Below, piece after piece: positions 84 through 53,700 of a stretch of DNA of 64,000 nucleotides (within the stretch, counting starts at the first letter, position 1; every line of letters starts with the position of its first letter). The stretch is from Tribonema minus (lineage: Eukaryota > Sar > Xanthophyceae > Tribonematales > Tribonemataceae): assembly GCA_017506865.1 (NCBI GenBank), contig JAFCMP010000026.1, positions 124,001-188,000 of the forward strand, read 5' to 3'. The notes under the pieces were generated by a model. That model did no database searches and was not told the DNA's origin. It worked only from the letters and a program-made list of their open reading frames with translations. A program made the translations under genes and the position numbers.

Positions 84-176
84 CCAGTTGCTGCAGCAGC
101 GGCGACCACGGTTATTGGTGGAAGGCATTTGCGGCTAGCCACACCTTGTAACCTATAGCTCTAAGATTCATTTCCA
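84..176 (-). repeat. Dispersed repeat X, copy 1
   Basis: Read on the minus strand, this stretch matches two other places in the window (25425-25513 and 45553-45616, both plus strand). The shared core contains GCTAGCCGCAAATGCCTTCC here and TTAGCCGCAAGTGCCTTCC in the others. This copy and the 25.4-kb copy also share the GTGGTCGCCGCTGCTGCAGC end. It is an old interspersed element of unknown class; I see no ORF or terminal repeat in it. Confidence 0.7.
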
Positions 177-304
177 TACCTATCGCCTGAAGTATTTTGT
201 TCAGAAAAGCAAAAAAATCATTATGACCCAATGAAGATGTCAAAAAAGCACATTGATAATTCAAACACACGGAAATATCATCATAGCCCTGCTCATTGTT
301 TCCC

Positions 305-355
305 CTTCTGCCTCATTGCTCAGCGGCGTGATGGGTGGCGCGGCGTTCGTGCGTT
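305..355 (+). repeat. Ghost of MAP3K exon 1, acceptor side
   Basis: This stretch repeats the acceptor and first about 35 bases of the exon at 476 (CTCAGCGGCGTGATGGGTGG is shared), then diverges. There is no donor and no continuing frame, so it is a partial copy lying upstream of the real exon. Confidence 0.75.
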
Positions 356-475
356 TGTGGTAAGAAATACTTGAACGTATTCGTTCACAAGAGCGAAAAA
401 CGGTAATTATATATTACAATCACAACTAAAGGTGTCTGCCTGTTCTTTTCTTTCTTCATTTGCATCACTGCTCAG

Positions 476-6400: not shown

Positions 6401-9400
6401 TGATGCATGCGCGGCTTCCTTCCCCTGGACTCTTGGCAAACAGAACACAACCCGAGGCCTGTTCCCCTTGTATCCTCTGGGAATGCTGCATTTGAGGCAT
6501 GCATGGGGGGAACAGGCTGTGTGCGGGTGCGGGAGATGCTGCTTCTTTGTCTCTGAGCCGCTTTGCGCGTCGGTGAACATGAGCTGCCACAATAGAGCAC
6601 TGATGCATCAATTTCACATTCCCGAGGCCTGCTCCCCGCGTGCATCATCGCTCAGGAGCCACCACGCGCGCCGCCACTCCAGCGCGGCGACCGCGCAGGC
6701 GGAGCGTCAGCACGACGAGTCCAACCTCAACTTGAAGTCCGCAGGCGACAAGCCGGCGCGCCCCGCGCGGCGCAACAAGCCGCCCCCCCTGATGGTCCCG
6801 GAGATAGGGCCGGGAGAGATGGGGGAGGGGGCAGGGCACCTCGAGGGGGGGCGCGGGGGGGTTGTACTGCAGATGGACTCCCCCACGGCTCAGCGCCTTC
6901 TGGAGAAGCCCGGGCGCCAGCGCAGGTATGTATGTATCTACGGACTGAAAGTGCGGCTTTTCATGTGCGCCATTTGCATTTTTGAAAGAAATGCACACTC
7001 ATGAGTATAATTCTTCGGAGTGAAAGTGTGGTTGGTCGTTGGCGTGATGATGTGATGTTACATAACCCCCCCCCCCCCTCTACATACCCCCACTGGCGCG
7101 CCGCCGTCGCCGCCGCAGGCACAAGCACCACCGGCGGCACACGCGGTCGGGGGGCGAGTCGGAGTTCTCACGCAGCGGCGGCGACGGCGGCGGCGGCGCC
7201 GCCACGCCGTGTCAGCACTGCGGCAGCGGCGGCGGCAGCGGCGGCGGCGGCGGCAGCGGCGGCGGCGGAAAGGGCGGCAAGTACGGCCGCGGCAGCCGCA
7301 ACAGCGCGAGCGTGGCGTTGGAAGGTTCGCCCGCGATGGGGCGGGGGCGCGACGGACCCCTGAGGTATGTATACTCATTGTCCTATACCTACCTATGTAA
7401 ATGTGTACATGCGTACAAGTACTTACTAAATGTGTTCGTCCGAGAGGGGTCGCCCGAGATGGGGCGGGGGCGCGACGGACCCCTGAGGTATGTATGCTTG
7501 AAGTACAACTTCAAGTATACTAACTCATAAAACAGACTGGAGTACCGAGATTACATGTTTCGCTAGCCTGCCTGCCCTGCTCCGCCGTGATCAGCAGCAG
7601 CGCTCGCTTTTTGAAATGAGTGCGCAGATTGTTGCATCGTTCTGGCGTTGGAGGGGTGGCTCGCGATGGGGCGGGGGCGCGATGGACCTCTGAGGTATGT
7701 ATGCTCGTGGTCCTATACCTACCGATGTACATCTGTATATATATATGTATAGAAATATATATATATCTACAAAGTACGTACTTTCTCCCATATGTTTTTC
7801 TCAGTGTATATGCTATGTGGTCCTGTACCTACCGATGTACGTGTGGAAGACGTACTTGCTTCCAAGGAACGGCTGCGTACGGACCTCTGAGTTACGTACT
7901 AAAGTATGCTAGTGGTCCTATGCCTGCCCATATACGTGTGCAAGACGTGCCTGCTTCCAGGGAAAGGCTGTACATGTGCCGAAACAGCGCGCCACAGCGC
8001 GGCCGTAACTCTAATCCTGACGCTACCCCTAACCCTAAGCTCGTTGAGTCATGTCGCGTCAACCGGCAGTCACAACAGCGGTTTGAAGCCTCACCCCGCA
8101 CAGCATTTTGCAAGTGAGGTCGCACCGTGCCTCCTAACACCGGCATCACACTCACATATACATACATGTACATTCTGTTAGAAGTATGTAATTCATGTGC
8201 AGATTCGAAGAGGTGCGCGGCGCGCCCAAGGACCCCGGCGCGTCGGCCGGCGGTTACAACCGTGCGTCAAAGCCTTGCAGTGTAGCACTCTACAGTTAAA
8301 GTAGCATCGTGCCTCCCAACAGCGACATGGCACTCACATATGGATGATCTATTTATGTATGTCATTCGTGTCATGCATGTGCAGGTTTGAAGAGGTACGC
8401 GGCGAGCCTAAGGACCCCGGCGCGTCGGCCGGCGGTTACAACAGCGAGCTGCTCTCGGAGGACAACGACAGCTTCGACGAGGAGACGCAGTGGGCGGTGG
8501 AAAGGGGGGGGGGTGCGCGGGGGGGGGATGCGCAGGGGGGTGGTGGCGGCGGGGGCTTTGGCATCCGATGGAAGCGGGGCGAGCAGGCGAGTCCCATAAT
8601 CTTTTTTTTGCTCCCGTGCGCATTGTACTTCTTGTTGGCGTTATCAAGCTCTAATTGAAATAGGCAGATTAGGGGTAGGGTTAGGAATTGAGTTCAAAAC
8701 GTGCCCTTGCGCATGATCATCACGTGACTGCTTGGTGAGCTGCTGGAAACAGCGTGTCTGGCGGCAGGGGCATGCGATAGAACCGCGGGGAGCAGGCGAG
8801 TCCCGGCGCTGTTTTTGCGCGTTGTTGCCTGTACCTACATCAACTCCCTGCTTCAAAGCAAGCCTGTCTTGGCGCCAGGGGCGTTAGGCTGCGTTCGATG
8901 GACGCGCGGGAGCAGGCGAGTCCGTTGCTTTTTCCGTTCCTGTGAAGTATTTCTTTCTGGAGTCATCGAGTTCAGCACGTGTGCTCCTGCGCACGTAACA
9001 TCATCGAGTGCCTGCTTGGCGAGCGGGGAGCAGCGCGTTTGGCCGCGGGGGCTTTGGCATCTGCTGGAAGCGCGGCCAGCAGGCAAGGCCGCATCGCTTT
9101 TCGCGCTTTCGCGCTTGTGCTAGCATCGACCTTCTTGCTTTGGTGCCCGATGGACGTGTGGCGAGCTTGCGAGGGTTAGGGTTAGGGTTAGGGCCATGTC
9201 GACTGGTTTGGCGTGCTCTCAAGCTGGCAGTTCCTTAGGGTCAGCGTTAAGGTTAGGGTTAGGTAATGCTTATCCCGAACTCTTGGAAGCAGCATGAAAA
9301 CGCCAACCCTGACGCTGTCGATACCCCCCTCCCCCCTTCCCGTCCCCCTCGCAAATTGGCGAGGGTTCGTTTGGCAATTTTTTTTCTGGGCCTCCTAATG

Positions 9401-12400
9401 CTGATGATACCCCCCCCCCCCCTCTCCGCACGCTCACCTTGCAGATCGGCGAGGGCTCATTTGGCAAGGTCTTCTTGGGCCTCCTAATGCTGGCGATACC
9501 CCCCACCCCCACCCCCCAACCCCCCCCCTAAATTAGGGAGAGCTCGTTTGGCAAAGTTTTCATGGACCTCCTAATGCTGATGCCTCCCCCCCCCACCCCA
9601 CCCCCAATCCCCTCTCGCAGATTGGCGAGGGCTCATTTGGCAAGGTCTTCATGGGCCTGAACGAGAGGACTGGCGAGCTGTTTGCCATCAAGCAGATTAG
9701 CCTAATGGATGGGACGCAGTCTGAGGTAACCCTAGCCCTAACCCTAGCCCTAACCACTAAGCACATCGCTTTATGAACGGGACGCAGTGTGAGGTAGCCA
9801 CGTGGACTAGGGTTAGGGTTAGGGTCATGGCCATGACCTGGTTTACGGTTAGGATTAGGGTTAGGGCCTAGCCAACAAATAAATCATAAAGTAGATCAGC
9901 CTCACGGACGAGACACAATCCGAGGTGACCCTGCACGTCAGAGTCGAGGCTATCTTTGATGTTTTGGGCAAGGTCGAGTTCAAGGGTGTTAGGGTTAGGA
10001 GTGGGCCTCACATCAAGCAGATTAGCCTTCTAGATGGGACGCAGTCTGAGGTAACCATGCACGTCAGAGTTGGAGTTTCGCTCAAAAGGTTTTGGGCAAG
10101 GTCAAGTTGAAGCGTGTTAGCGCTAGCGTTAGGGGTAGGCCTCGCATCAAGCAGATCAGCCTTTTGAGCGGGACGCAGTGTGAAATAATCCCGTGGACTA
10201 CGTAGGCTTAGGGCTAGGATAATCACGCAAGCTATGGTAGCACTCGGGCAAGGGTCAGATTGAGGCTCAGGGTTACCGTCTTATCAATATTTAAGGCCAC
10301 AGGACGTTGTTTTTGTACCCAGCGTAAAAACAGGGGGTGGACGTGGATTATATGGTGCGAGTGAAACAGGGGGATGCATTTAACATCCAGCATGAAGATT
10401 GAGGGCTTTGCACTTCGCTCTTGTCGTTGCTGCTAGGCTCTCGGCAAAGTTCTACCGTCACCAACGTTTTCAGGGTCACACTTGACGTTGGCCGTGTTTT
10501 CGGGAAAGCGAGCGCTTTTTTAGGCTGCCAATCGTTGAATTTGTGAATCGGTGCATGCTTCCGTTTGAACGCGTGCTGCGCTCACGTGCGCAGGCGGATC
10601 AATCGTGAATTCATCCGTTGATCATGCGCCGTGTTCATGCGCGCAAGCGGAGAAGCTGGAGGCGGAGATCAACGTCATGAACTCGCGCCACCAACCGCAA
10701 TTTTGAAGTACACCTTGTAGTTGACAACTGACATTACAGCCGCTGTGTATGTATATGCTCTGAAGTAGTCGTTCTACTGCAAAGCGCTTCTCTCCAGCTA
10801 CCGAATGACGGCACACTGACCTCACATGAATCGGTGAATTTAGTGAACTCATGAGTTGGTGAATTTATCCGTGGATCACACAGGCGGAGAAGCTGGAGGC
10901 GGAGATCCACGTCATGAAGTCGCTCTGCCACCGCCACATTGTGCGCTACATCGGCACGAGCCGCGGCGACCGCAACCTCTACATCTTCCTGGAATACGTC
11001 CCTGGCGGCAGCATAGCGACCATGCTGTCGCGCTTTGGCGTCTTCCAAGAGGGCCTTATACGGCGCTTCATGTACCAGGTAAAGGTTAGGTTATAGGGGT
11101 AACTAGGGCCAAGTGTGTAGGGTTAGGGTTAGGCTTGTGCATCAGTGCTCAGCATTGCGATAATACCATGCCGTTCAGACATTGCCGATTTTTTTTGGAG
11201 ACCGAGTCTTGGGCCCGAGTTTTACCGAGTTTTACCTCGCTACTAGGGGCCTCAGCCACCCCGATTTTAATCGGTGAAAACTCACTCGGTGTGGTGCCCA
11301 GCACCGATTAATTTCAGACTGTATGAGGGCTGTTTTCGAAGTCCCCCGCGGTCAGTCCTTTTATTCAGCCAGAAGTCCCGGTCGCGGTATTTTCGGTCTT
11401 GTAGTTCGCCCGCACTTGGGGTTTCGCATGGCGGAGGCTGCTGAAGCAGCAGAAGCTGCAGCAGCAGATGTGCTGACTGTAGAAGAGCTGGAGGCCCCAC
11501 TGCCTGCAGCCACGTGTATGCTTCCCCTCGTGTAGGTTGACACGTGGAGTCTACTACCCGGTCATCGAACGCAGCGGCAATGATACCTGGTGACCAGAGG
11601 ATGAGGATCTCATGGAGGAGAAGAAGCTCCTGGGCTTCTGTAACTTAAGGCTGCAGCAGCTCAAAAGCTCGGCAAGAAGCGCGACGTTACTGATAGGTTT
11701 GTCACGTCAAGTTGAACTTCCACAAAAGCAATGTGCCATCAGATGCGCACGTATCCTGCATCGAGCGCACTCAAGAAGGAGGACGACAGAGTACATTTTC
11801 GGCAATCGTACAAGTCGGTATAAAATTGGGTGTTGCCTGCAATACTCGCCATTACTCGCCTAGCGAGGTGCTGGTCAATTACTCGGGGGTCCGTGTAAAA
11901 CTCGACTCGCTTCTGGCTGGACCACATTACTCATGACTCGGTCTGTTTGCCAGAGGGGTTTACTCGGTGACAAATCCACTCGGATTTGACAAGTCATTCC
12001 GCAACCCTACTCGGGGGTCAGACCTCACAAATCAGCAAAGTCTGATGCTGTCGCGCTTCGGCGTCTCCCAGGAGGGCCTGATACGGCGCTTCATGTACCA
12101 GGCAAGATTTATATTAAGTAGGGTTAGGGTTGGGCTGATGAATCTGTGCTCAGCGTTGTGCAGTCCCGCTTTCGGCGTCTTTCAGGAGGGCCTGATGCGG
12201 CGCTTCATGTACCAGGCAGGGATAGGGTTAGGGTTAGGAGTAGGGTCAGGCTTGCTCAGCATCGCACGCTACCGTGCTGTCGCGCTTCGGCGTCTTCCAG
12301 GAGGGCCTCGCACGGCGCTTCGCGCGCCAGAGTCTTTCCGCCTCATGGCGAAACAGCTTTTGTGTGTCAGCGCGTAATGCAGCACTTGCTAAGTGGCAGC

Positions 12401-15400
12401 ACTCAGCAGCAGCAGCGCTCCGCAGCAGTGCTGCACGCAGCGGCACTCCGCAGCAATGCTCAGCAGCAGCGCTCGAATAGTGGCGCTATGCAGCATTGCT
12501 CAACAGCAGCAGCGCCCCGCAGCAGCGCTCTGCAGCAGCGCCCAACAGCAGCGCACTGCGCCAGCACCCAGCAGCAGCGGTCGCCGTGTGCGCCTCTCCA
12601 TGGCTGGCGTTATAGGTAGGATTAGGGTGAGGTTTAGGTGCTCAGTAAATGATAACGGCCTCAGGGGTGCGCGCACGGTCATCGTCGCGATGCTGCTCTA
12701 CGAATGAGGACTGTAGAGCAGCGAGCCGCACTCGTACCTTGACACAAAGTAAGGTACAGTGCAGATAATATCGCGGCGCTCTGTTGGTGTTGAAGGCCTG
12801 CCAGAGACCACCGTGCCGTTCCTGCCCCCCTCAAACTTCAACCCTGGCTATGCAACTTCAACTCTGCCTGCGCCTGGAACGCCTGCCCTCTCGTGCACGT
12901 GCAGATACTGCTGGGCGTGAGCTACCTGCACAACAACGGCATCATGCACTGCGACATCAAGGGCGCGAACGTCCTGGTCACGGAGCAGGTGATGCTCAGT
13001 GCCGCTGCGATGCACTTTCTCACATGTTGAAGTATGTACAAAAATCAGGGTCTCGGCATACGCATTTTGAGCCCGAAGGCAAGTACAAACTATTCAATTC
13101 AGACGTATGTATACTAGACTTGTGACGTACTCTGGAGAACGCACTTTGGAATACATTGCGCACGTCCAGTGTAGCAAGTAAAATTTCATCATGTGCTTCA
13201 GAGCACATGTCCTGGCCCAAAGTACTGCTGCATGCACTGCAACATCAGGAGCGCCGCTAAGCTCGTCACGGAGCAGGTGATGCTCCGCATGCTGTGCACA
13301 GTGCTCAGCACAATACAGCTGTAACTCACCCGCCCTGATTGTGCGTCGGCCGCCGCAGGAAACGCTGTGCTGCGCCGATCATTTGGGTCGGAAGTGGGTG
13401 AGGGTTGAGGCGGCGGGGAGTTCCGCCGCATGAGCCCTGCCTCTTGGCTTCCAAAAACCTAGCTGCTGCGGGGCTTGCGCACGCAGAACTTTGTGAGGAG
13501 AGTGCGCACTTTGTACCACGACCCTGACCCTGCTTGAATTCTGATTTTGGCGACTGCTGCCTGGCAATTGCTACGTCCGTGCGCAGGGCATTGCGAAGCT
13601 GGCCGACTTCGGGTGCTCCAAGCAGCTGCAGGGCATGCGCACGCAGAGCTTTGAGGAGAGCGCGCACGGCATACGCGGCAGCGTCATGTGGATGGCACCG
13701 GAGGTCATCAAGCAGACGCGCCACGGCCGCAGCGCGGTGCGTACATGCGCAGCAATGTAGGGTGTACCTCGAAGCACGTGAATGGTCATCACAGCTACTT
13801 GGAGATGTCTACGGACGCTTGATGCTCGAAGCGCCTACTGCTTGAGGCACAGTGTACATACATTCACAATACTTCTGTGCATTATACATCAAACAGACAC
13901 GCCACGGCCGCAGTGTGTACATGCGCTGCTAAACCTAACCCTAATAAACGCATGCGTGGATGAACACGGTTAACTTTGATCCTAGCCCTAATATACGTAT
14001 GCGTAGGGTGAACGCAGTTGGCTTTGAAGTATATGAACATACGGCAACCCTGACCTTGGTGCGCTATGGTCATATACATATTATATACATGTATATATAT
14101 GAACATATATATATATATATGACCATACATATATATGACCATATATATATATATTTGGTCATATATACATATATATGGTCATATATATATGTGCACGTCA
14201 TGTTCAGGCACGCTGAATACGGCGCGATCATGATAGGGATGGGGACGACGCTTCATATACATGTATGCTGTCTGCATACTTGTATGCGATCCTTATACAT
14301 ACATGCTATATTGACCTTTGATTTTTCACTGGACGTGTGGAGCACCGGCGCGACCATGTAGAGATGGGGACTGCGCACTGCTCGTGGCCGGCATTCACTC
14401 GTACATGTATGCAAGTTCAATATTGAAGTTTGTGTATTCATCCAAATCTCTGGCGTACCAACTGAGCTACATCTCTGGCGCATCGACTGCGCTGATAGCC
14501 CTCTCATCACTTGTTCAGTAATGTCGTCCTTTCTGACAGTTTTTTGGCCGTTATTGTGCAGGACGTGTGGAGCGCCGGCGCGACCATGATAGAGATGGGC
14601 ACAGCCCCACCGCCCGTGGCCGGCGTTCACCAACCTTCTCACTGTTAAAGTAAATCAGTACTTGGTAATAAGCTGGTACTTGTTGATCTTTCATACATGC
14701 GCAGGACGTGTGGAGCGCCGGCGCGACCATGATAGAGATGGGCACGGCCCACCGCCCGTGGCCTGCGTTCACCAACAACCTCGCCGCCATGTTCCACGTC
14801 GCGACGACGCGCGAGCCGCCGCCGCCGCCGGACGGCCTGAGCGCTGCTGCAAATGACTTCCTGGCCCGCTGCATGTGCATAGACCCGGTGAGAGCCGTCA
14901 CCAGGCGCTAAGCAGCACTGCCGGATGCCTTGATACCGTTACTATTGTCCATCAGCGGTAGTGTCAGGGTACCGTTTCATGTCGCCGGATCGCCGACTCT
15001 CCTCGGAAGTTTTCCTCGCGGAGTGAGCGGTTTGGCTGGTGCAAAAGTAGAGGAGTGATCATTTGTCAGATCCACAAAACACATTGCGGATTTACGTTTC
15101 ATTGCGTGGGGGCATAAGTTTCCCCAGGACTTGACAGAACCTCCCAGACCTTGCAAAGAAGCATCCAAGAGCAACCTGGTTTGTTGAACCCGTGCTTCCA
15201 AGAGCAACCTGCGACAGATCCCGAGCTCATCCTAGACCACCAGGAATGCCCTATATTCTTACAGGTGGGAAGCGGCTCATCTGCTGTGCCTGCCTTCCTC
15301 ATCACTACCCTCCTGATCACCACAGCCAGCGCCTCACCTGCTGATCTGACGGCTGTGGAAAGTGATGAAGCTGCTCAACCTCAACATGAGCTGAATTGTG

Positions 15401-17959: not shown

Positions 17960-17960
17960 G

Positions 17961-18440
17961 CAGCAGTGGCGGCGGTGGCGGCGGCAGAGGCGGGCGCTGC
18001 GGAGGCAGCGGCGGCAGCAGCGGCGGCGGCGGCAGCAGCGGCGGCAGCAGCGGAGGCAGCGGCGGCGGCGGCAGCAACGGCAGTAGTGGCTGCAGCAGCA
18101 GCTGCAGCAGCGGCTGCTGCGGCCGCAGCAGCGGCGGCAGCGGCAGCAACAGCGGCGGTGGGTACTGCAGCAGCTGCGGCAGCAGCAGCGGCAGCAGCGG
18201 CGGCGCTTCACGAGGAGCTCCATGTCTGCACGTATCTGCGCCTGCGGCCAGAAGCACAGTGCGCACCGCCTAATGAGCAACTGCGACAGCAGTGCTGAGC
18301 AGTTGGCGAGTGTTCCTGTCGTCGAGCTAAGCCTCGGTTGGCTGTCTGCAAAGCAGCATACAGCAGCAGAGCAGTGCCGAAGCGGTCGATGAATGTGCCA
18401 GCTGTCAAGCTTTGCAGCGGTCGGCTGTCTATAAAGCAGC
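17961..18440 (+). repeat. GCAGCG trinucleotide tract and post-stop ghosts
   Basis: From 17961 to 18210 a (GCN)n tract follows the MAP3K stop codon and reads as poly-Ala in one frame. At about 18337 and 18417 the phrase around the stop (CGGTTGGCTGTCT, CGGTCGGCTGTCT; the gene has CAGTCGGCTGTCT) is copied again. The duplication habit therefore extends into the 3' untranslated region. Confidence 0.7.
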
Positions 18441-29652: not shown

Positions 29653-29685
<33 letters not shown>

Positions 29686-29747
29686 GCAGCTGCTGCGACA
29701 GCGGCAGCAGTAGCAGCAGCGACAGCAGCAGCAGCAGCAGCAGTAGC

Positions 29748-29780
<33 letters not shown>

Positions 29781-38700: not shown

Positions 38701-41700
38701 GTGACCAGAGCTAGCACTGTGATTGCCAGAGCAGAGCTCAGCACGTGTTGAGGCTGGGTGCTTGGTGCGCAGTGACGTTGCGCCTCAGACAGGGTTCGCA
38801 TCATGCTCCTACAAAAGTCACTTCCTCTGTTAGCAACACATGCCGTCGTGAGTTGCGTCTGCTGGGCTGCTTGGTGGTCTGCCTCTGGCACGGTGGTGGC
38901 GCTACGCTCTGTCGGCGATGAATATTGCATTTCAAGCATCTGCGATTGACACAGGTATCACTACCCTCATGTTTAGGGACGTGTTGACGCTGTCACGCCA
39001 GCCATCAGCGGGGCTGTGAGCACATGGCAAAGTTCGTGCCGCTGCGTTCCATGTCCATCCTCTCGCGGCTTACAGACTTGCATGCTGCAGCATCATCACC
39101 ACAGTAGCGCGCATAGGAACCAGCTGCTGATTGCTTGCATTGTTGGGCCAGTGTCAAACAGCAGTCACATTCAGTTACTACCTCACGGTCACCCCCCCAG
39201 AAGCAGTAAGTTCAATTATGATTCCACATAGCGCGCGCAGCAGCATGGGCGCGCTTGGCGCACACCAGAATTTGTAGAATTCCGAGTCGGAACCGGCTTA
39301 GAGTCGGAACCGGCTTAGACGGTTTCTGCTCGTCTAGATGGCGAAGATGAAAAGACGAATGTCAACACACCGTCTTTTTTCAAAGCAGCTTTTGTGGCTT
39401 GCATAAATAACACTCCAGCAGGCATGTGGCTCGCGTACGATGCCAAGGCAAGAGTGCTGATGCACCGCGACTATGTGCCGCTTGCTATTTCACTTTTTCC
39501 GTTTATTCATTTTCCATTTATTCACTTCAAGTTTGAAGTGCAAGTGTGTGGTCCGTTGTCGCATACAGGAGTGTAGGTACCCACAAAAGCTGTGTTGCCC
39601 CTACACGAAGTAATCATTTGGTTCACGGTCAAAATGAAGTAGAAGTAGGTGAAGTAGGTGAGTCGGCGTGGCAAGGCCGTCTTAGACGGAAAAGACGGTG
39701 AAAGACGGTACAGCCCGTTTAGACGGCTCAGACGGACGGCGGGCTAAGCCGTCTGCAATTAAGACGGTTTGTGGGACCGGCTCGGAACTCTAAGAGTTTG
39801 CATGCATTCAAAGAGCACTGTCATGACGGATTATGCACGTGCCCTCGGGGAATGTATCATAGCTGGCATGCTTCAACTTACTGTAATAACGGATTGTGCG
39901 CATGCTCCGGGTATATGCAGGTACGAACAGACGACATCACGGCCATCATCATGTTCTTTGACGAGCACTAGGAAGCGCCGTTTGGGGCGAAACCTCTTCA
40001 ATGCTGCAGCGGGCAGCACATATGCACTTTGCGCACATTACAGCTGTCATGCTCTAAAGCAGCGTAATTGAATTGTGCGCATGCTCCGGGTATATGCAGG
40101 TACGAACAGATATCACGGCCATCATCGTGTTCTTCGATGAGTACCGGGAAGCATACCTTACATCATACCTTACATGCTTCAAATCATTGTGGTGACGGAA
40201 GATCATTGCAATAACAGATTGCGCGCGTGCATTCTGCGGTATGCAGGTGCGGACGGATGACATGACGGCCATCATCGTGTTCTTTGATGAGTACCTGGAA
40301 GCGCCGTTTGGAGCAAAATCTCTCAAACGCCGCAGCGGGGAGCACATGCGCGCTTTGCAATTCGACCGTCATGCTCTGAAGCTTTGTAATTAAATTGCGC
40401 GTTTGGTCCCGCGGTATGCAGGTGCGGACCGACGACATCACGGCCATCATCGTGTTCTTTGACGAATACCGGGAAGCGCCGCCGCCCAAGCTGGGCGCCT
40501 CGCAGGACAGCATGAACAGGTATGTATGTATGAAGACAATTTTTAAGCTTTCTTCGAAACGTGCATCCTGGCTGCAGCGGCTTTCTGATGATTGTGCTTG
40601 CACTTGCATATGCGGATTGCTTTTCTAGGACACTGACCCAGCATCTGCTTGTGGCAGCGACAGCGCCGGTTAGCACGGCTGGCCCCCGTTTACGACATCT
40701 ACTGGCAGATCCAGATCCTGTCCTATTGTGAAGCATTGTGTCTTCATGACACCGGCACTGCGGCCGCATGCAGCAGTTTTTTTATCCACAGACAGATCGC
40801 AGAAGTGCATGAACGAAGCAGCGGCTCAGCTTGGCAGCGGCCGCGGGAAACCCCCTGTACGTACACACTGACCAATCCTACAAAAAGATGCACACGCGTG
40901 CCGGTGGGCCATTCCCATCTCACGTTTGTCTCTCTTCTCTCACCCCGCCGCCGCAGCAACACGTCGTCGTATTCTGCGACGCTGGCGCCGTGCAAGCAGC
41001 GCCTCAGCATCAGCGCCAGCGCCAACGATCCGAGGTGTCCCCAACACACCCTTTGGCACATGCTACACTAACACGGATACACGCTCCGGTTGGCCAGTCC
41101 CATATCACCTCCGTGGCTCTCTTCTCTCGCCCCGCCGCCGCAGCAACATGTCGACGTACTCTGCGACGCTGGTGGCGCGCAAGCAGCGGCTCAGCATCAC
41201 TGCCGCTGCCAAGGCACTGAGGCGTGTTTCTCTACATACACCCACTGGCACATGCTATAGGAACATGCACACGCGCTCCGGTGCCGGTTGGCCGTTCCCA
41301 TCTCACCTCCGTGGCTCTCTTCTCTCGCCCCGCCGCCGCAGCAACATGTCGACGTACTCGGCGACGCTGGTGGCGCGCAAGCAGCGGCTCAGCGTCAGCG
41401 GCGGCGCCGAGGCCACGGGGATGCGCCCCGTGCGGCGCTACTTCAGCAAGGAGGCGCGCAATCGGCTGATCCGCGAGGGCGCGCCGCGCGCCGCCGCCGG
41501 CAAGGCGGACGAGGGCTTCGACTTCCACAAGGTCAGTTACATGTTTGGGAAAATTGAAGTTGGATGTAGCATCATGACATGTTGAAGTTGGCAGCCGCGG
41601 GCGGAGATGCGCCCCGTGCGGCGCTACTTCAGCAAGGAGGCGCGCAATCGGCTGATCCGCGAGGGCGCGCCGCGCGCCGCCGCCGGCAAGGCCGACGAGG

Positions 41701-44700
41701 GCTTCGACTTTCACAAGGTCAGTGACAAAGTTGGATGAGGTGAAGTTTTTGCAGTTGAAGTTTTACTTAGTTGAAGTTATGAAAGAGTTGAAGTTGGGAG
41801 TCGGGGTGCGCGGCCGGCTGACAGTCCTGACAGAGTTGACGCTGGGAGTTCGGGGGGTACTTCAGCAAGGAGGCGCGCAACTGGCTCATCCGCGAGAGCG
41901 CGCCGCGCGGCGCCGCCGGCAAGGACGGGCGAGAGATTTGACTTCCACAAGGTCTGTCACATACTTGAAATAGCGGAGGTTGGGTGTAGTTGAAAGTTTG
42001 ACAGAGTTGAAGTTGGGAGTTTGTGGGGTGCTTCAAGGAGGCACACCGGCTCATCCACGAGGGCGTGCCGCACGCCGCCGCGTGCAACGTCGACGAGAGC
42101 TTCGACTTTCACAAGGTCAGGTTTTAATGAAGGTGAGGTTGGATGAATTTTTAAAAGGGTTAAAGTTGGGAGTCAGGTAAGCGTGCACGCCACCGCTGGC
42201 AAGGCGGACAAGAGCTTCAAATCCCACAAGGTCAGACCTGAAGTTGGATGGAGGTACAATCCAAGTGTAAAGGGTACACATATACAGTTGAGCTGGGGTG
42301 AGAGTTGGCTTTCGGCAGGGGTAGCGCCGCGCGCCGGCCAGGTCAGCGTTAGGGTTAGGGTTAGGCAAGGCTGACGAGGGCTCTACTTCTTGTGGTTGGA
42401 GGATGGTTAGGGTTAGGGTTAGGGTTAGGGTTGGGGTTAGGGTTAGGGTTAGGGTTGCTGTTAAGGTATACATGGCATGCATCGCAGCTGCGGCAGTCCA
42501 CGGTCGCCTCTGTCGTTCGCTGTGAGGCGACTGTGGGTAAGGTGCATCAGCGGGTGCTGACACATATTCTTTAAAGTGCAGCCTGCTGCTGGGTGAGGGG
42601 TAGGGATAGGCAGGCATAGGGGGAGGGGCCAGTGTTGATGCTGCAGCCGTTGAGCATTTCAAGACCTACTCCACGAGAGGAGAAGCATGTTGCCAGCTCA
42701 GGCCTGCATCAAGCGTGTGCCGTTCAAATTCAAAGGCTAGATTTACTAGGTTCAGTTGCATTCTTCCCGTTTGTTGATATTTACTGTAAAAAAATGGGGC
42801 GTGTCAAGCGCCCTGAGCCGGTGGCAGAGATCGTTCGCGCGCGCTGTTGAACACTTCAACAATGTGCACGTACATCTGCAGTGTTACGAACGCCATGTGT
42901 CGACGCTCTGCCATTCGGCCTCAAATGGTTACCATGACAGATGGCTGAGCGGAGCAAATGCGCAGGAGTAGAGCGACAACGAGACAGAGCATGTGGCATT
43001 GAATGCATGACCTGGCGAGGATCCTCAAGTAGCCACTTGCACTGCTAGTCTTCTATGTGTTTAAAAATTCACGAATGCGTGATGTGATCTGCTCATTGAT
43101 GTAGCTTCTACTTGTCCACTATTTGCATATACGGCGCAGGCGCGCGTGCCTAAGAGCACCGAGGAGGCAGCGCGCAATGCATAAGCAAGGACGTTTCAGC
43201 TCGCAGCTGTAATTGCGATCCTGAGCCTCGTGATTCTGCACGAGGTCCTCTGCTCATCTCGCTACTTTCTCTCCGCTACCTGTGCACTGTTTGTGCTTTG
43301 AGCAGGCGCGCGTGCAAGATATGATACAAACCTCATATATACTCACCTGCGCTACTTTGTAGCCTTGGGGTTAGGGTTAGGGTTGGGATTAGGGTTAGCC
43401 TTGGGTGCTGTCAATTCGGGCTCTCTGTGGTCATTGGATGTCAACATACATCAGCGAGTCGTGGGCCCTTCTGCTGCACTGACGATCTTTTGCATGGCTC
43501 ATCCAATAATATGCTCTACATATTTGTCTGCTTTCGCCCACTGTGCAGGCGCGCGTGCCCAAGAGTACCGAGGAGGCAGCGCGCATCGCTCGCGTCATCA
43601 GCAAGGTGTTCCTGTTCAGCCAGCTCTCGCCGCCGCAGATGGACAAGGTGGTGCAGGTGAGACTTCAAGTTGAAGTTTTTCCGTCAGCTTCAATGCTGCT
43701 GACTCAATGCTGACAGCTGGATTGACGTGCCGCAAATGTCAGGCGACGTCGTTCCATTTGCGTTGCTTCTGCCTGCATTACCAGCCGCAGCAGCACAAAC
43801 CTGGCAGCACCCAGAGGTTCATTTGCATATGCAGGACATTAGTCTACTTTAATTGGGAATGAGGATTTGCAAAGGAGTGCAGTTAGACTTACTTAGTGTT
43901 ACGCTCAAGGCTCGCGCTGTTATTTGAAGTGCGTTTAGTGAATCCACGCAATGTCCATGGTTTGATTCTTCACTTCATGTCCATGACTTGCCGTCTCAGC
44001 GGTGTCAGGTGATGAAGCCGGAGTTTGACTAAATCGTTTGCATATAGTGGCCATTCACGTCTCTTCCGCCTACGTTGTCAGACAAGAGTTTTGTTGCTTG
44101 TACAAGGCAGAACCTTTGGTCGGGCCTTGTGATAAGAGAAGTGGGTCGCATCAGGTGATGAAGCCGGAGTTTGTCAAAGCAGGCGACTCTGTCATCAAGC
44201 AGGGGGACGAAAACGACTTTGCAAAAACAAGCCGGACGTTGTCGATGAGACCTGATAGAGACCTGTGATTCAAAAGGAGTAGCATTAAAAGTAGTGTTCA
44301 GGTTGGGCTCAGGGCTCACCTATTCTTTTCATTGTATCAGCAATGCTCATGGGTTTGTCTGTCGATGGCGGCAGGTGATGAAGCCGGAGTTTGTGAAAGC
44401 AGGCGACCCCGTCATCAAGCAGGGGGACGAGGGGGACAAGTTCTACGTCGTGGACAGCGGCACGTACAGCGTGAGCGTCACCGACCACAAGGCAAGTTCA
44501 TGTACTTGAAGTTAGCACCATCATGGACTTAAGTGCTTGAGAGATTCGCGGCAACAACAGGGCTTGTGAACTTCATGTGAATGACAAACCCATTCTGTCA
44601 GATGCAATTTACAGCAACGTGTCTAACCGCCTCATGCGTGCTGATTGCAGTCATTTTGCATCCTGTTTGCCTTGCTTGCGCACTGCTCCATTGCATAAGG

Positions 44701-47700
44701 CAGACAAACCCTAGTCGGTATCAGAGGGTTATTGCGGCGCCCAATGCCTTCTGGGGCGTGCTGCAGGGCCGTGCATCTCTGCATGACGAGCGCCGTAGAC
44801 CTTGCACCTGTAACTGCCGCATGCAGCGCGCTGCTCAACCATTCACCACACCTCCAGTCGCCCGCTTGCTCGGAGCTACTTTAAACAATGCCAACGGACA
44901 CAACCCCCTCGTCGCTACCCCCCCCTGCCCCCCTCTTTGCACTTTCGAAACGACAAGCCAATCACTAATACTCCCCCCCCCCCCCCCCCCCTCCACCTCA
45001 ACTGTGCTCAAGCGATGACTCACTAACACTCCTCACCCCTCACCCCCCCCGCCCGACCCACCACTTGCAGGGCCAAGCCAACCAAGTCAGCGTGATCACA
45101 GAGCCGGGCGCGTCGTTCGGCGAGCTGTCGCTCATGTATGGCAAGCCGCGCACGGCAACTGTAACGTGCACGCGCGACGGTCAGCTGTGGTCGCTGGACC
45201 GGCGCGCGTTCCGCGGCGTGCTGGTGGAGCGCATGGTGCACGAGGACATGATTAAGGTATGTATGGTATGAACACATCTCTACCAAAACATCTACAGTAA
45301 GTCTGATATGTATCAGGTCCAACAGGATTTCTACTTCTAGTACATTTGATGTATACACGTACGAGGTATATAAATACGTGGTCGCTCGACCGCCGCGCGT
45401 TCCGCGGCGGCCTGGTGGAGCGCATGGTGCACGATGACATGATCAAGGTATGTAATGTATGTCATGTACACTTATATGCAGAAACATCTAGAAGTTTAGT
45501 GCATGTGATATACATATAGAAGTCCACGTGCAAGGTATACGCATGAAAAATCAATCAAAAGATCGCAGAACTCTAGGTGACAAGGGATGGTTAGCCGCAA
45601 GTGCCTTCCACCAAAAATGTATGTTGTGTAGAAACACACGTACTTCAGTACATGTGGTATGTTAATAGTTTGGAATACTGTACTTCAGAAGTATATATTG
45701 AAAAATATACAGTAACAACGTATTTCTATCTATTTGGTCGCTGGATCGTCGTGCATTCCGCGGCGGCCTGGTGGAGCGCATGGTGCACGAGGACATGATC
45801 AAGGCATGTATGTATATACACAAATCGCATCCTCCGTAGATCCTACCCTATGGCAGCATGCGATTGCAATCCCAAAGTGCATAGCATCAGAAAGAGTAGT
45901 ACCAATTATCAAGGGGCTAATATGTGTTGCCTACTTTAAATTTAACGATGAATATATGTTTTCCGCTGTGTCTGCTCGCGCTGCAGGTGCTGCGCAAGGT
46001 CAAAACGCTGTCCAAGCTCACAACGCTCAGGCTGCAGCAGCTGTGCGAGGCCCTGAAGGAGGAGGTGAGCAGCTGAGCGATGTTGCGATAGTGATGAGCA
46101 TCATCACACCATGACTCTTAAAGATAACACATGCAGCCTTGCGCAAAAGTGCGGTAGTAAGACTATCATCACACCATTTTTTTCAAAAGTGCCAGACAGA
46201 TCCTTGCAAAGATGATTGAAGTACGTTGTAGCGGCTGGGACCCCAAGGAAATGTTGAGCTGAACCACAATGGCTGACGGCGGTGCGGCTTTGCACACACG
46301 GGGGCAATACGCGTGTGCTCGTGGAAAGTTCAGAGCGCACTAGTACACAGCAGTACAGGGCAGTACAGAGGGTGAACCGTGACTTGTGCACCTCGTCAAC
46401 ATGCTTGTCACCAGCGCATCACTTCAGAATCCCCTCATTGAAGTAGTTATAAATGCAGTCACTGCAGGAAGGCATCTGAAATGCATAACATACATCGCCT
46501 GCGTGCACGTTGATTGATTATTGGCCTAGCACGCCCTTGCAGCACAACTCAGTTGAAGTCATTCTGAGGGGGCTGGTGCAGCCATTTGGCGTCCGAAGCG
46601 TACAACAGAATTTGTGTGTGTGCATGTGTTCACACTCGACGCGCGCATGGCAGCAGCATTGCTCAGCGCCTCACTCTCACACCACACAGCGCTCAGCATC
46701 TCATTTGCGGATTGGCACGTCCTCATGTGCGCACAGGAGTTCAAGGCCGGGGAATATATTGCGCGCCAGGGGGAGGCGGGCGACAAGTTCTACGTCGTCG
46801 CCAGTGGCGAAGTTTCGTGCTGCCTGCGAGGAGAGGGGGGCGAAGAAGAGCAGGTATCCATGTTGAAATTGTAAACTCCTACTGCAAACTGCAAATTGCT
46901 TGATGCACAACTACTTGAATGATTAATCAACCATGTAGGCTTTGACTCTGGGTCATGGTGATGTGTACAACGGCATCAGCAATTTATGTGCTGCAAATCA
47001 AATACTACACATGTTCTACGTTGTTGCTAGCGGTGAGGTGGCGTGTTGCCTGCGCGGGGATGGGGGCGAAGAAGAGCAGGTGTGCACGCATTGACTTGTG
47101 AACCACGTAAATGATTGTGGACTGCCTGAATAATCATCAATTTTGTAGTCTTTGACTCTGGGGTACTATGATGTGTAAAAGGGGATCAGCAGTTGGGTGG
47201 CTGGACGTCAAATACTACACAAAGTCTACGTTGCCGCCGGCGGCGAGGTGTCGCGCTGCCTGCGCTGATGAGCAGGCATGCACGTACTTGAACAAGACTT
47301 CAACCATCGCGAGTACCGCAGGCTAAGACTTTGGGGTATGCAGAGGTACCAGACACTATTCATACAAGTCAATGTTGTGCTCACTGCACCTGAAGTACTA
47401 CAGTTTTTCCCCCCGCTGACGCCCCCGCCCCGCTTCTCGTGTGCTTCTACTTGAACTTTTATACAGGTCAGCCGCATCGGCAAAAACGGCTTCTTTGGGG
47501 AGACGGCGTTGCTGCGCAGTGACATTCGTAAGGTACGGCGAACTAGCGACATCTCACCTTGGTGGAAAATGTCAGGTTAGGGTTACGGTTAGGGTCAGGG
47601 TTACTGACACTCAGAGTTATTAACCTAAACCCTAGCCCTGAGGTGCAGAAGCCGCGTGAGCCACTTCATGGCGTGGTAAATCGTGCGCTCCATGCTTGGC

Positions 47701-50700
47701 GTGTTGGCGGCTTTTACGCACTTCGCGCACGCACAAAGCGAGGGTCTGCCTCCTGCCGGCCTTGCCTCAGATCTTTGCAGCATCTTCAGCATCTGCATCT
47801 TGCACTTAAGTAGTTGTACTTTGGCGCCCTTCGATGCACGGGCGTACACTCGGCGCAAGGGCTGGTTGCAGTACTGCAGAGCACTGACGTCTACCATCTA
47901 TTGTTAAAACTGCGCCTGTTGCAAGGGCTGATCACAGTACTGCAGAGCACTGACCTCTATTGTCCTGAATCGCGCCGTACTCGGACGTACGCACAGGTGT
48001 CATTCGTGGCGGCCGGTCAGGTGCGCGTGCTCTCGCTCAGCAGAGCGGACGTGGAGGCGCGACTCGGCAGGCTGATCGACGTGCTGGAGGCCGATATGGC
48101 GCGGGAGGTGAGTCACAGTTGAAGTATCTGTTGAAGTCATGACACTACTTGCCACCTGGCGCGGCTCGGCAGGCTCGTAGACGTGCTGGAGGCCGACATG
48201 GCGCGGGAGGTGAGTCACAGTTGAAGTATCTGTTGAAGTCTTGTCACTATAGCCTTCTTGCGCCAGAACTGCAGCTGCTGCATCCGCACCTGACTCTGAA
48301 GCAGACATGCGCTGCGGGCCAATCTCTTTCAGTGACAGGGTTAGGGTGAGGGTTGGGGGATGTGTTTCTGCTGTTGCATCTGACAGAGATGGTCGCTGTG
48401 AGTTGCTGATAATGCTGCACGCAAAGACGGCGGAGGTGCTCATGCAGGGCGCCAGCGCCACCCGCCTCGGTCGCAGTCAGGTGTGGGCAGCCCAAGCAGC
48501 GCACGCCCAAACCCCGATGTGGTGCTGACAGAGGGTATTATGCTGTTCACTCGACTTTCTGCATTAACGACACTAGCAATATGCCGCGCCGCTCATCCAA
48601 ATGCCTACTTTCACGACACTGAGGGTGCAGGCTCGCACGTAAGCGCTCACGGCCCATCAAGGCGCAGGCTCACGCGTACACGCTCACTGCCCACCAAGCC
48701 GCAGGCGAAGACGGTGGATGGGCTTTTGTTTTGAGCTTACTCGAAAACGCTCACTGCTCGTCAAGGTGTAGGCTCACACGTACACTACACCACGCCTTTT
48801 TTTCTTCATGCGGTGCATGGCGCTGGTCACTCTATGTTTTTTTTTAGACGTTAACTTGCCCTCACCCCAACCCTAGCATGCAAATTGTCACTGCGCAACA
48901 CGCCGCAGGCGAAGACAATGAATGGGGTGCTCGCGCAAGATGCTGTCGCGGCGCACCTATGCCGCATGAAGCAATCAGCTGTATCCCTCAACAACACTGG
49001 CATGAGACTGTTAACCGCCAACATCGCCTCAGACAAACATGATGTGCGCACGCAAGCTGCCGCCGCGGTGCACCTCAGCCGCATCGTGCTCGCTCAATCT
49101 GCTTTTCTGCCAACATGCTAGTAGCTGCTGACTGCCCAGGACACCGCAGACAAAACCTGCACGTGCCTGCGCTTCTGTTGAAGTGCGGGATGGCAGCGCT
49201 CACGCGCATCATACGCCCCGGTATCGTACCAATGTGCTCACCGAGGCTATGCCGCTGCTCACGGAAATATTCACTATAACAGCACTCAACACTGACAGTG
49301 ACAGTATAGGCTCACGCGTAAACGCTCACTGCCCATCATGCTGCAGGCGAAGACAATGGGTGTGCACACGCAGGACGCCGCTGCTGCCCGCCACAGTCGC
49401 AATTTGGCTTTTGGCAACCCACGCAGCGCACGCTCAAAGCTCGCTATATGCTGCTGACAGACGGCCCGCTGCTGGTCACTCGATTCTCTGCGTCCGCAAC
49501 TGACCCTATACCTAACCCTAGCATGCCACCTCTCACTGCTCATCATGCCGCAGGCCAAGACAATGGGCGTGCACGCGCAAGACGCCGCCGCCGCGCACGC
49601 GCTCGCCGGCTCGCAGTATTCCGACCTCACCTTTCTGCGCTGGGCGGTGCAGCTCGGCAACTACGGCTTCGTGGCAACGATGGAGCACCGACGCCTGGGT
49701 CGCGCGTTTTCCGTGAAGGTAAGTGCTTCCCTGTGTTACTTTAATGAAATATTCATTTGTTGTATTATTGCCACGACTCCCAAGCCTTTCAAAGTAGACC
49801 GCAGTACTTTAATTGATTCACTTATGAGACGATGGAGCACCAGCGCCTCGGCTGCACTTCTCTGTCAAGGTGAGCGTTGCAAATACGCGGCCCCCAACGC
49901 GCATCCGCAGCCATAGCTTTGATACGTGCTTTTGCGTGCATTTGAACTTGTGATTTGCACCGGTGCCTCGGCCGCGCGTTTTCCGTCATGGTGAGCGCTC
50001 TTCTGCGTTACGTTGAGGTGATATTCACTTGTTGTATTTTTGTTACAACTCCAAAATAGACAACAGTACTTTGATTTTTGTACTTGTGAAATGATGGAGC
50101 ACCGGTGCCTGAGTCGTGCGTTTTCTGTCAAGGCATCCGCAGCCATAGCTTTGATATGTGCTTTTGCGTGCATTTGAACTTGTGATTTGCACCGGTGCCT
50201 CGGCCGCGCGTTTTCCGTCATGGTGAGCGCTCTTCTGCGTTACGTTGAGGTGATATTCACTTATTGTTTTTTTGTTACAACTCCAAAATAGACAACAGTA
50301 CTTTAATTTTTGTACTTGTGAAATGATGGAGCACCGGTGCCTGAGTCGTGCGTTTTCTGTCAAGGCGAGCGCTCCGCAATGTTACTCTGAAGTATCCAAC
50401 GTTGCTTTTTTGTTTTGACGACCCCTAACTTTATTGTTGCCACGACTCCCCAAGTACTTCAAAGAAGACAGCAGTTCTTGAGTTCTTTTACTTGTTTATA
50501 AGATGATGGAGCACCGGCGCCTCGGCCGCGCATTCTCCGTCAAGGTGAGCGCTCCCCTGTGTTTATTTGAAGTATCAGCCAGGTGGCTTCATCATATGCA
50601 CTAGTGGCTCAGGGAATGAGTTGAACTTCCATGAAGTTGCGTGCTAGTAGTACGCTTCTGCTTCACTGACTTTGTGTGGTTTCATTTTGATGGCGCACCG

Positions 50701-53700
50701 GCGCCTCAACCAAGCGTCTTCCGTCAAGGTGAGCGCTGCAAATGCGCAACCGCCGACTACGGCCAGGAGGCGGCGCTCGCGCACGAGCCTCTGCACGTAC
50801 TTCGTCGTCCCCTCGCGTGCCGTTGCATGCAAACTTCAACATATCTTGAAGTTTCTACCAACTTGTGCTCGCAGGTCATCAGCAAGTGCGCCGCCGCCGA
50901 CGAGGGCCAGGAGGCGGCGCTCGCGCACGAGGCGGCGATACTGCGCGCGCTGTCCAAGTCGTGCGCGTTTGTGCCGGCGATACTGCACACCATGCAGGAC
51001 GCGCGCTGCTTCTGCACCGTGTACAAGGCGCGCGTCGCGTGCGACCTCATTGCGCTTGCAGATAGGCGGCCGCTCACACAGCCGGTACGTATGTATGTAC
51101 TTTGCAGTTAAAGTGTATGTATATTGTGAAGTATATGGAAGTCACCCATACAGGTCATGAGTACATGCATGTGGACATGTATGTACGTCCAGGGTTAGGG
51201 TACGTATGTATGGTGACGGTGTGCACGTGTACATGCACATCTTGTGAGCGTGTCACCCTCGACGGGGGGCTGCACCATATGTACGCAATGCCAAAGTGCT
51301 CAAAGTGCGCGAGCTTATTGCGTTCATGCACTGATGCTCATTCATACACAGGCCATGTACTGATGCGTCAGAGACGCGTTGTTCAAGGCTTGCAACGTCT
51401 GGCAGCCTTGTCCATCAAAGCAGTGGTATCCACATTCTGCCACCTTCAATGAAGCTTGCAACGTCTGGCAGCCTTGTCCATCAAAGCAGTGGTATCCACA
51501 TTCTGCCACCTTCAATATGACGACGAGTGCATCCCGCTCGCGACACATGCTTCTCTACGGCTGACAGTATGTCAGAAGGCTGTTCATCTGCCCGAGTAGT
51601 GGCTGGTTTCTTCTAGCGTGGTGCTTGCAGGCATGTCATTGGCTCTGCACACGTGCACTGACCCATTAGTGGCAGGCTGTTCATTGTTGTCCCCATTGCC
51701 TCACAGGCATGTCAGTGGCTGTGCGTGCCTACAATATATACATTGATGTCGTCAGATGTTCTCTCTGCACTGATACTACGCTCAATTCGACCCCGCATGT
51801 TGCAGGCATGTCAGTGGCTGTGCGCGTGCATCGCCAGCGGCGTCGCACACCTTCATGAGGAAGGCATTATACACAGGCAAGCACGCAATGGCAATACTTG
51901 GTATATGCATACATGTGCCACATGACTTTTTCCAAAAATAAATGTGCAAAATATTAAGACCGAATGACTTTCCAAAACTGACATGAGCACGTGTACGCCA
52001 GCGGCGGCGCGCACCTTCACAAGCAGGGCTTACACAGCACGCAACACAATGTTAACACTTTGTAATGTAAGCACTTTTATCTACTGCCAACAAGACCTAT
52101 AATGACTTTCCGGAAATTTCATTAGTACGCCAGCGGCGACGCGCACCTCCATGAGGAGGGCATACATACACAGGCAAGCACGCAACACTGCAACACTCTG
52201 TGAATGTGCACACACTTTTTACTACTGCCAATCAGATTATGGCTTTTGCACAAGCCACCGCATCTGTGTGAAATGCTTGAGCGATGTGATTTTCAGTCCT
52301 GTTTAATGCCATTGCATGCCTAACACCCCCCTCCCGCCCCCTCTGCCCCCTCCTTCCTCACCCGCCCGCAGACGCGTCACGCCTCACTGCGTGTACATCA
52401 CCGAGCAGGGGTACGCGCAAATAGCCGACATGAGCTGCGCCACCAAGATGACCGGTAGCCGCGCATATACCATGATCGGCGACCCTCAATATCTGGCGCC
52501 AGAGGTCATCAGCGGGCAGGTGTGTAATTGAAGTATGAAGTTGAACGTTAGCCGTATGTACAACATTGTTAGCGGCTTCCAGTATCTGGCACCAGAGGCC
52601 ATCAGCGGGCAGGTAACAAGTTGCCGCTGTGTCCATTACAAGTAGGCACAGGCGAGAAAACTAGCGGCTAAACAGACACACCACCTGGTAGGATGTGATG
52701 CCCAATCCATTCAGGTACTTCAAGTGCATGATTCAACATGTACGCTGAGCTCTGCTGCATATCAAGCGCTTCGCCTTTGTTTTTCGTACTCTGATGAGCA
52801 CTGCTGCCGCTTGCCGTGCACGCGCAGGGTTACGGATTCAGCGTGGATCACTGGGCACTGGGCATACTTACCTACGAGATGCTAGAGGCCGCAACCCCGT
52901 TTGGCAAGGGCAGGTATGTATTGCAGTTGACAGTGTATTGCAGTTGACAGCGCAGCGCCTGATACCTGTGTGAAAACATCCTCTTCACAAGCGCTTTATG
53001 TGGTTTGCACATCAGACTTACTTCATGGAGCAGCTCGCCGCATGCGCGAGCCTCGAGCAACATTGCCATGTGCTTGCTTCCTTTGCTCAAGTTGGTACGT
53101 ATGCACTGAGCACCTGATATGCCGCGCCTTTCCGACACTGGTATTGCTGGGGTCAGCGCAAGCGCTTGACCTGCATGAAGGCCGTCATTGCACGATCTTG
53201 TGTACTCATTTTATCCTATCATTATACTTGGAAAGTAGCGGTTTTTGAAAGTGATCGTGCGCTGAGTGTTATCAAGCGCTAGCCCTTACCCTTGCCCTGT
53301 TTCACAACTTCTTTGCTCATTGGCCAGTTCCTGATTCTGTGTGCGCACTACGCATGCTATCTAACCTCAACCCTAACCCTACTTCAATGCGCAGCATAAG
53401 CGCCGGCAACGCCAGCACTGCGGAGCTGTCCAACGAGACAGAGATCTACATCAACATCAGCTGCTTCGACCCCGCTAAACTCGGCCTCAGCAGGTATTTG
53501 TGGCTAAATTAATACTTTGAGGTACTTCTATTTGCATTCCTTTGAAGTACTTTCAAGCGTTGTGAAATCGGACTGCGAAAATCATAATGCATCACAAAGG
53601 GGATTGAATGTACGCGAGAGCAGCTCAAGCAAGTACGTTAAGGGTGGCAAGTTGCTTCGAGGATGGATGACTACTGTAGCTCAAGTCTTGTCCTCAGTAG

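Follow-up and report, generated by a model that had tools for sequence, protein, structure and literature searches.

Partial, decayed exon copies flank most exons of three genes in Tribonema minus and suggest repeated tandem duplication across splice junctions

Tandem duplication within genes has been described as a source of new introns. In the Rogers model of tandem genomic duplication, an exonic segment containing AGGT is duplicated and a new intron is made, as set out in the available passages of PMC3443670. In the potato RdRp gene, the available part of PMC4974935 describes a tandem duplication that once made a new intron, with exon sequence inserted via a cryptic donor. Daphnia neointrons contain internal direct repeats, which the available passages of PMC4202315 put down to staggered double-strand breaks, with passive growth of young introns proposed. 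For Haematococcus, tandemly arranged short repeats are reported in the genome paper along with a telomere motif of AACCCT, and its available passages do not mention exon copies of the kind described below (PMC7617258). Here we analysed 64,000 nucleotides of the Tribonema minus genome (contig JAFCMP010000026.1, positions 124,001 to 188,000), referred to as the window, in which the introns of a MAP3K gene, a PP2C gene and a PP2C-CNB-kinase fusion gene hold decayed partial copies of the adjoining exons. Here ‘ghost’ refers to such a copy. Intron lengthening apart from transposon insertion is, to our knowledge, poorly documented. Among the titles and abstract starts listed by a limited open-licence literature search, none presents the repeated duplication of junctions as a way for introns to grow, or reports it at most exons of a gene.

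Ghosts were searched by comparing each of 32 exons, with 60 nt of flank, with its own adjacent introns up to 2.5 kb, and matches with less than 15 nt of exon were dropped before counting. There were 100 ghost matches, 99 direct and 1 inverted. At least one match accompanies 28 of the 32 exons, and 16 have matches on both sides; none was found for C3, C14, C16 and C23. Ghosts carry ~15-120 nt of exon and differ from their exon by ~4-39 percent. Together with up to 60 nt of flank they occupy 7,650 of 27,840 intron bp, and local direct repeats of all kinds occupy 15,759 of the 27,840 bp. As regards dispersal of the introner type, the copies are local, with 92 matches in 55,680 bp of adjacent intron versus 8 in 835,200 bp of non-adjacent intron of the three genes (172-fold denser), in a comparison of exons with introns. 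The direct orientation also prevails among self-matches within 5 kb over the whole window (147 direct versus 3 inverted), and among repeat pairs in 3-kb windows under more sensitive scoring (135 versus 11).

The side on which a ghost lies depends on the exon end that it carries. Upstream, the direct matches comprise 37 with the acceptor and the exon's 5′ part, 6 internal ones from the 5′ half, and 1 spanning both edges. Downstream, they comprise 47 with the 3′ part and the donor, 6 internal to the 3′ half and 2 internal to the 5′ half. All 84 direct ghosts with one exon edge are on the expected side, and no acceptor copy downstream or donor copy upstream occurs among the 99 direct matches. A blind scan, performed without exon knowledge by split-point local alignment with the maximum of 1500 random pairings as the threshold, detected 127 events, 90 of them within gene spans. 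With the exon as upstream copy, the shared edge is a donor in 26 events and an acceptor in 0; with the exon as downstream copy, it is an acceptor in 20 and a donor in 0. The one-edge events agree with the side rule in 46 of 46 cases and, with 3 both-edge and 5 internal events, make up 54 exon events.

This rule is to be expected of tandem duplications that have one end in the exon and the other in the intron, provided that the protein is kept. Where the duplicated segment has its start in intron and its end in exon, the whole exon follows on from the second copy alone, and the mirror case puts the ghost downstream. Since the asymmetry is forced by geometry, it is good evidence for tandem duplication and none for anything stranger. 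A simulation of exon-touching events with the observed lengths puts the share of acceptor events at 0.39, of donor events at 0.40, of whole-exon events at 0.16 and of coding-changing events at 0.05, although it applies the geometric argument and is no independent test of the side rule.

The original prediction, made from the letters of the window, had claimed decayed partial copies beside almost every exon of the three genes on both strands, acceptor copies upstream and donor copies downstream, and the census agrees with it on both points and the blind scan on the second. Copies of each exon end keep to one side (all 37 with the acceptor are upstream and all 47 with the donor downstream). Its examples at 35545, 41342 and 49554 and, on the minus strand, 24224 and 22832 hold. 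At exon 9621, three upstream ghosts and three of the four claimed downstream were recovered by the search, and the fourth was read by eye at ~9895. The claimed ceiling of 7 copies is too low, as exon 49554 has 11 matches (5 upstream, two of them overlapping, and 6 downstream). Intron flank is copied along with ghosts, as claimed, but it is short in some of the best-preserved ones. The side asymmetry, held to be remarkable in itself, is what tandem geometry requires.

The exon set was rebuilt from reading frames and splice sites, with 7 exons used for MAP3K (plus strand), 5 for PP2C (minus strand) and 20 for the fusion gene (plus strand). Both splice sites were assigned for all 32, with AG before each and a donor of GT in 28 and GC in 4 (at 8587, 35695, 44492 and 51877, exons M1, C5, C12 and C21). 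The start of C18 was set one base over, at 49554, giving a preceding AG. Exons without two assigned splice sites were excluded, namely the 5′ exons of each gene, the final exon of PP2C, C9 and a possible exon near 51.4 kb. The joined MAP3K exons match Pfam Pkinase (1.6e-69, model 2-263 of 263), and the joined PP2C exons match the PP2C domain (6e-51, model 10-255 of 255). Those of the fusion gene match cNMP (6.9e-40, two cyclic-nucleotide-binding stretches), PP2C (1.1e-33) and Pkinase (3.7e-29, truncated at its end). The joined products align to solved MAP3K, PKG and PP2C chains straight across the exon joints, and the domains are continuous. Because the joined domains are intact and the alignments cross the joints, the exon choice is sound at the homology level. 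The exons and their ghosts are as follows.

8385..8586 (+), MAP3K exon M1, GC donor; ghosts upstream 8144-8266, 8053-8080; downstream 8760-8804, 9018-9139, 9137-9173
9621..9725 (+), MAP3K exon M2 (P-loop); ghosts upstream 9324-9393, 9387-9482, 9474-9569; downstream 9754-9799, ~9895-9930 (by eye), 9964-10058, 10092-10191
10884..11078 (+), MAP3K exon M3; ghosts upstream 10603-10714; downstream 12045-12126, 12159-12254, 12268-12330
12905..12988 (+), MAP3K exon M4; ghost downstream 13220-13287
13587..13736 (+), MAP3K exon M5; ghosts upstream 13458-13509; downstream 13887-13931
14705..14887 (+), MAP3K exon M6; ghosts upstream 14144-14251, 14309-14398, 14504-14644
15642..15800 (+), MAP3K exon M7; ghost downstream 15889-16041; weak upstream 15264-15299
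26426..26562 (-), PP2C exon P1; ghosts upstream 26686-26792; downstream 26217-26284
25590..25746 (-), PP2C exon P2; ghosts downstream 25298-25326, 25183-25260, 24979-25043, 24876-24904
24224..24367 (-), PP2C exon P3; ghosts upstream 24450-24552, 24699-24738; downstream 24044-24184, 23914-24028, 23756-23891, 23747-23776
22832..22984 (-), PP2C exon P4; ghosts upstream 23071-23145, 23330-23428; downstream 22661-22712 (96 percent), 22432-22530, 22263-22354
21510..21608 (-), PP2C exon P5; ghosts upstream 21673-21805, 21811-21927, 22025-22153
33198..33344 (+), PP2C-CNB-kinase exon C2; ghosts upstream 32672-32702, 32849-32893, 32976-33069; downstream 33407-33504, 33641-33777; weak inverted 32665-32700
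34133..34243 (+), exon C3; no ghost found
34610..34756 (+), exon C4; ghost downstream 34867-34926
35545..35694 (+), exon C5, GC donor; ghosts upstream 35252-35325, 35411-35461; downstream 35805-35929, 35971-36065, 36144-36258, 36315-36403
36677..36834 (+), exon C6; ghosts upstream 36517-36555; downstream 36892-37020, 37045-37075; head-to-tail, unit 139
37467..37587 (+), exon C7; ghosts upstream 37084-37139, 37112-37167, 37234-37299, 37309-37395; downstream 37640-37702, 37751-37829
38450..38539 (+), exon C8; ghosts upstream 38114-38210, 38260-38335; downstream 38634-38723
39856..40481 (+), C9 array; four tandem near-complete copies of a candidate exon encoding the PP2C domain end, with what we take to be the DDITAI motif
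41342..41531 (+), exon C10; ghosts upstream 40899-41042, 41086-41215; downstream 41602-41778, 41853-42016, 42034-42169, 42185-42235; weak internal 41636-41718
43549..43656 (+), exon C11; ghost upstream 43109-43180
44375..44491 (+), exon C12, GC donor; ghosts upstream 43977-44027, 44141-44210
45071..45256 (+), exon C13; ghosts downstream 45378-45492, 45733-45826
45987..46064 (+), exon C14; no ghost found
46737..46853 (+), exon C15; ghosts downstream 47009-47103, 47219-47276; unit 226, copies without gap
47467..47532 (+), exon C16; no ghost found
47997..48107 (+), exon C17; ghost downstream 48158-48263; head-to-tail, unit 102
49554..49718 (+), exon C18; ghosts upstream 48632-48713, 48681-48723, 48853-48956, 48993-49110, 49321-49391; downstream 49829-49880, 49957-50050, 50088-50146, 50189-50282, 50320-50422, 50503-50585
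50875..51084 (+), exon C19; ghost upstream 50736-50789
51806..51876 (+), exon C21, GC donor; ghosts upstream 51625-51758 (weak, both edges), 51704-51727; downstream 51984-52073, 52128-52214
52372..52519 (+), exon C22; ghost downstream 52538-52614
52828..52913 (+), exon C23; no ghost found

Ghosts above E 1e-3 were left out of the counts of codon positions, age, spacing and tandem extent. Of the 28 exon sides with at least two ghosts, 23 show less divergence in the nearest than in the farthest, 3 show more and 2 are tied (sign test, two-sided ~9e-5, by hand). The mean mismatch of the exon part is 0.124 for the nearest ghost and 0.202 for the farthest. As the nearest copy is usually the least diverged, new copies form next to the exon and push earlier ones away from it, so that introns accrete at their ends.

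Exon-ghost mismatch at codon positions 1, 2 and 3 is 0.134, 0.118 and 0.253, and that of the intron flank is 0.258. Free drift of the ghost (0.13), with the exon free to change at silent sites only, would produce this pattern. A frameshifting indel is found in 34 of 92 ghosts and an in-frame stop in 7 of 92. AG is retained in 29 of 36 ghosts, the exon's own donor pair in 32 of 46 and either GT or GC in 41 of 46, about the neutral expectation of ~three quarters (calculated by hand with a per-site ghost change of 0.13). Exon C5 now has a GC donor and two of its ghosts carry GT; the C5 donor may have been GT when those two copies arose. An assembly or sequencing artefact is extremely improbable given divergence of ~4-39 percent that is codon-structured and increases outward, on both strands and in three genes.

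Successive copies are spaced by 69-412 bp with one exception of 1,023, and the 92 of 93 spacings at or below 450 have a median of 152 and quartiles of 130 and 191. Tandem extent was measured by split-point alignment on 41 exon sides, where M3 downstream (distance 1,023) was left out and several sides used a ghost farther than the nearest. The gap between copies is within 15 nt on 14 sides, 16-60 nt on 11 and >60 nt on 16, and abutting units include 98, 102, 138, 139, 177 and 226. This measure replaced one by self-BLAST, whose pairs were too few and which merged arrays; it gave a pair for 25 of 42 exon sides, 1 within 15 nt, 12 overlapping and 12 apart. Old copies have fuzzy ends.

The duplications could be thought to be small tandem events that are equally frequent everywhere, those touching exons being noticed since exons are recognisable. 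The side rule requires nothing more than this. The 90 in-gene events of the blind scan, however, comprise 54 with an exon, 31 with a ghost, 3 in the C9 array and 2 with neither, and random intervals of the observed lengths fall on junctions in 18.7 percent, ghost-free intron in 28.4, ghost-containing intron in 44.0 and whole exons in 3.9. At an even rate, with detection allowed for, ~63 (from the 46 one-edge events) or ~74 (from the 54 exon events) are predicted in ghost-free intron, and only 2 were seen (63 bp at 51,386, which could belong to an unassigned exon, and 39 bp at 47,855). A BLAST list adds two exon-free, ghost-free pairs in favor of the even rate (15305-15621 and 38579-38972). Exon-ghost pairs are also somewhat easier to detect, as 446 of 500 simulated junction pairs of the observed age were recovered versus 402 of 500 intron-only pairs, in a simulation that used another detector than the blind scan. 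On the other hand, the 54 exon-touching events exceed the 37.1 under random placement (standard deviation 4.5, maximum 52 of 2000). Events per kb are 2.80 in the gene spans versus 0.44 at 28-32.5 kb and 0.36 at 53-64 kb; they are 2.53 at the left end, which lies outside the assigned exons, and 0.70 at 16.1-20.4 kb. An even rate is therefore unlikely in our judgment. The excess at exon edges and the near-empty ghost-free intron suggest that exon edges are where duplications concentrate, or where they are preferentially retained. Beyond the original prediction, stretches of intron with neither exon nor ghost show almost no duplications.

In our view the ghosts probably stem from tandem duplication that recurs across junctions and persists because it is masked when the intact exon is spliced. 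Segments mostly of 70-290 bp that cross an exon-intron junction would be duplicated in place, head to tail, again and again. With a segment of intron end and exon start, the first copy would be stranded upstream as a 5′ ghost; with one of exon end and intron start, the second copy would be stranded downstream as a 3′ ghost. The intact exon with its splice sites would keep being spliced and the mRNA would be unchanged, making the duplication nearly neutral. The ghost would then decay, later duplications would shift older ghosts outwards, and introns would accrete at both ends.

Several observations weigh against this account. Plain tandem duplication does not predict the >60 nt of unmatched sequence between copies on 16 of 41 sides. 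Such sides include C12, whose ghost matches 89 percent over 70 nt, and the donor-side ghost of P4 matches 96 percent over 52 nt, after which the match stops though the copy is 165 nt distant. The best-preserved ghosts were rejected as proof of whole-unit tandem duplication, because several come without the rest of the unit. In such ghosts, filler may have been added, parts may have been lost, or some copies may have been pasted as short fragments. These gaps and the abrupt ends of the P4 and C12 ghosts would suit short junction fragments copy-pasted nearby into the intron, with filler DNA, during break repair or template switching. That process gives no obvious reason for the side rule (84 of 84), and 14 of 41 sides have copies that abut to within 15 nt, so we think it improbable. 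Both processes could act together, as tandem duplication with filler.

Whole-exon copies are also scarcer (1 of 99 matches, 3 of 54 events) than the 0.16 given by geometry, a shortfall that selection may explain. In addition, ghost-ghost mismatch keeps a codon effect (0.184, 0.170 and 0.312, flank 0.319, over 77 pairs), also at G/C sites alone. From three-way counts and hand arithmetic, ghost positions 1-2 change at ~0.6-0.9 of the rate inferred from flank and position 3; a young/old split by sorting ghosts on divergence is biased and serves as a range only. Exon change between the births of two ghosts explains part of the ghost-ghost effect, and some past constraint or ascertainment is possible. 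This effect, with the retained splice dinucleotides, could indicate that ghosts function as alternative exon ends, or as mutually exclusive ones. But that retention is near neutral, frameshifts occur in 34 of 92, and both exon edges are present in 1 of 99 direct matches, leaving this very improbable. We regard ghosts as mostly relaxed rather than conserved exons, and their decay is near-neutral. Lastly, the junction preference rests on one 64-kb locus, and ghost-free intron could be younger inserted DNA.

Other observations were made in the window. A perfect 63-bp direct repeat at 51388-51516, the best-matching tandem pair of that length listed, lies in a candidate kinase exon. Positions 1-8300 are densely duplicated in tandem (21 events), with open frames suggesting upstream MAP3K exons or another gene; in the plus-strand frames of 1-4502, no Pfam family exceeded its cut-off. 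Positions 53000-64000 have 4 weak local duplication events and long open frames at 57294-58403 and 59648-60571, and no Pfam family was found there in six frames up to E 1. The 7-mer TTGAAGT/ACTTCAA occurs 94 times on both strands versus 7.8 expected from even base use, often inside a near-palindrome like TACTTGAAGTA; of the 58 that are intronic, 14 follow a donor by no more than 60 nt. TTAGGG/CCCTAA occurs 83 times versus ~31 expected from even base use, often in short degenerate telomere-like intronic runs. No tRNA genes were found in the window, a degenerate pattern searched in it gave no result, one 191-base stretch had no match to plasmids, and one 30-base stretch had none to viral contigs.

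At 28 of 32 exons, over three genes, past junction duplications are preserved in layers that can be roughly dated. If this layout is genome-wide, it would be a natural experiment in which numerous, nearly identical decoy splice sites are bypassed by the spliceosome; it would also provide a neutral clock inside introns and a test of splice junctions as fragile sites. Our guess is that a transcription- or splicing-coupled process focuses duplication on junctions. Nucleosome-sized replication intermediates would also fit the ~150 bp length. More tentatively, and with doubt prevailing, exon-intron junctions might in this lineage be mutational hot spots for ~150 bp tandem duplications, tied to transcription or splicing, with introns growing ring-like at both ends and ghosts recording past exon states.

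As far as the passages of the above-mentioned reports go, the Rogers model has in common with our case that part of a gene is duplicated locally in tandem while splicing keeps the coding intact, but here the junctions copied and the introns lengthened are ones already present. In our reading of that model, the start of the next exon is copied to the intron head and the end of the previous exon to its tail. Although the basic event is shared, it is exceedingly unlikely that these introns were born from exonic AGGT segments, since 84 of 99 direct ghosts contain one exon edge as part of a junction that already existed, together with its intron side. The original prediction had linked the ghosts to that intron-gain route. 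Its repeated local duplication across existing junctions, its kept coding (judged by homology) and its lengthened introns are supported, as is an outward ageing of the copies, and the AGGT route is unsupported or unneeded because the copies carry a pre-existing acceptor or donor. The potato RdRp copy, as described in part, likewise consists of intron end and exon start, directly repeated, like the 37 upstream acceptor ghosts, but here no exon has been added, judged by homology, and copies lie at 28 of 32 exons. Recurrent direct repeats are common to the Daphnia introns as far as described, whose exon-shared repeats are 4-12 bp at new introns, in contrast to ~15-120 nt of exon at established junctions here. 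Tandem duplication of mutually exclusive exons involves complete copies with both splice sites, to which 1 of 99 ghosts weakly corresponds, the C9 array being a possible exception. Duplications inside genes reportedly sometimes include introns; there the gene gains segments, whereas here the copies fall out of the coding sequence.

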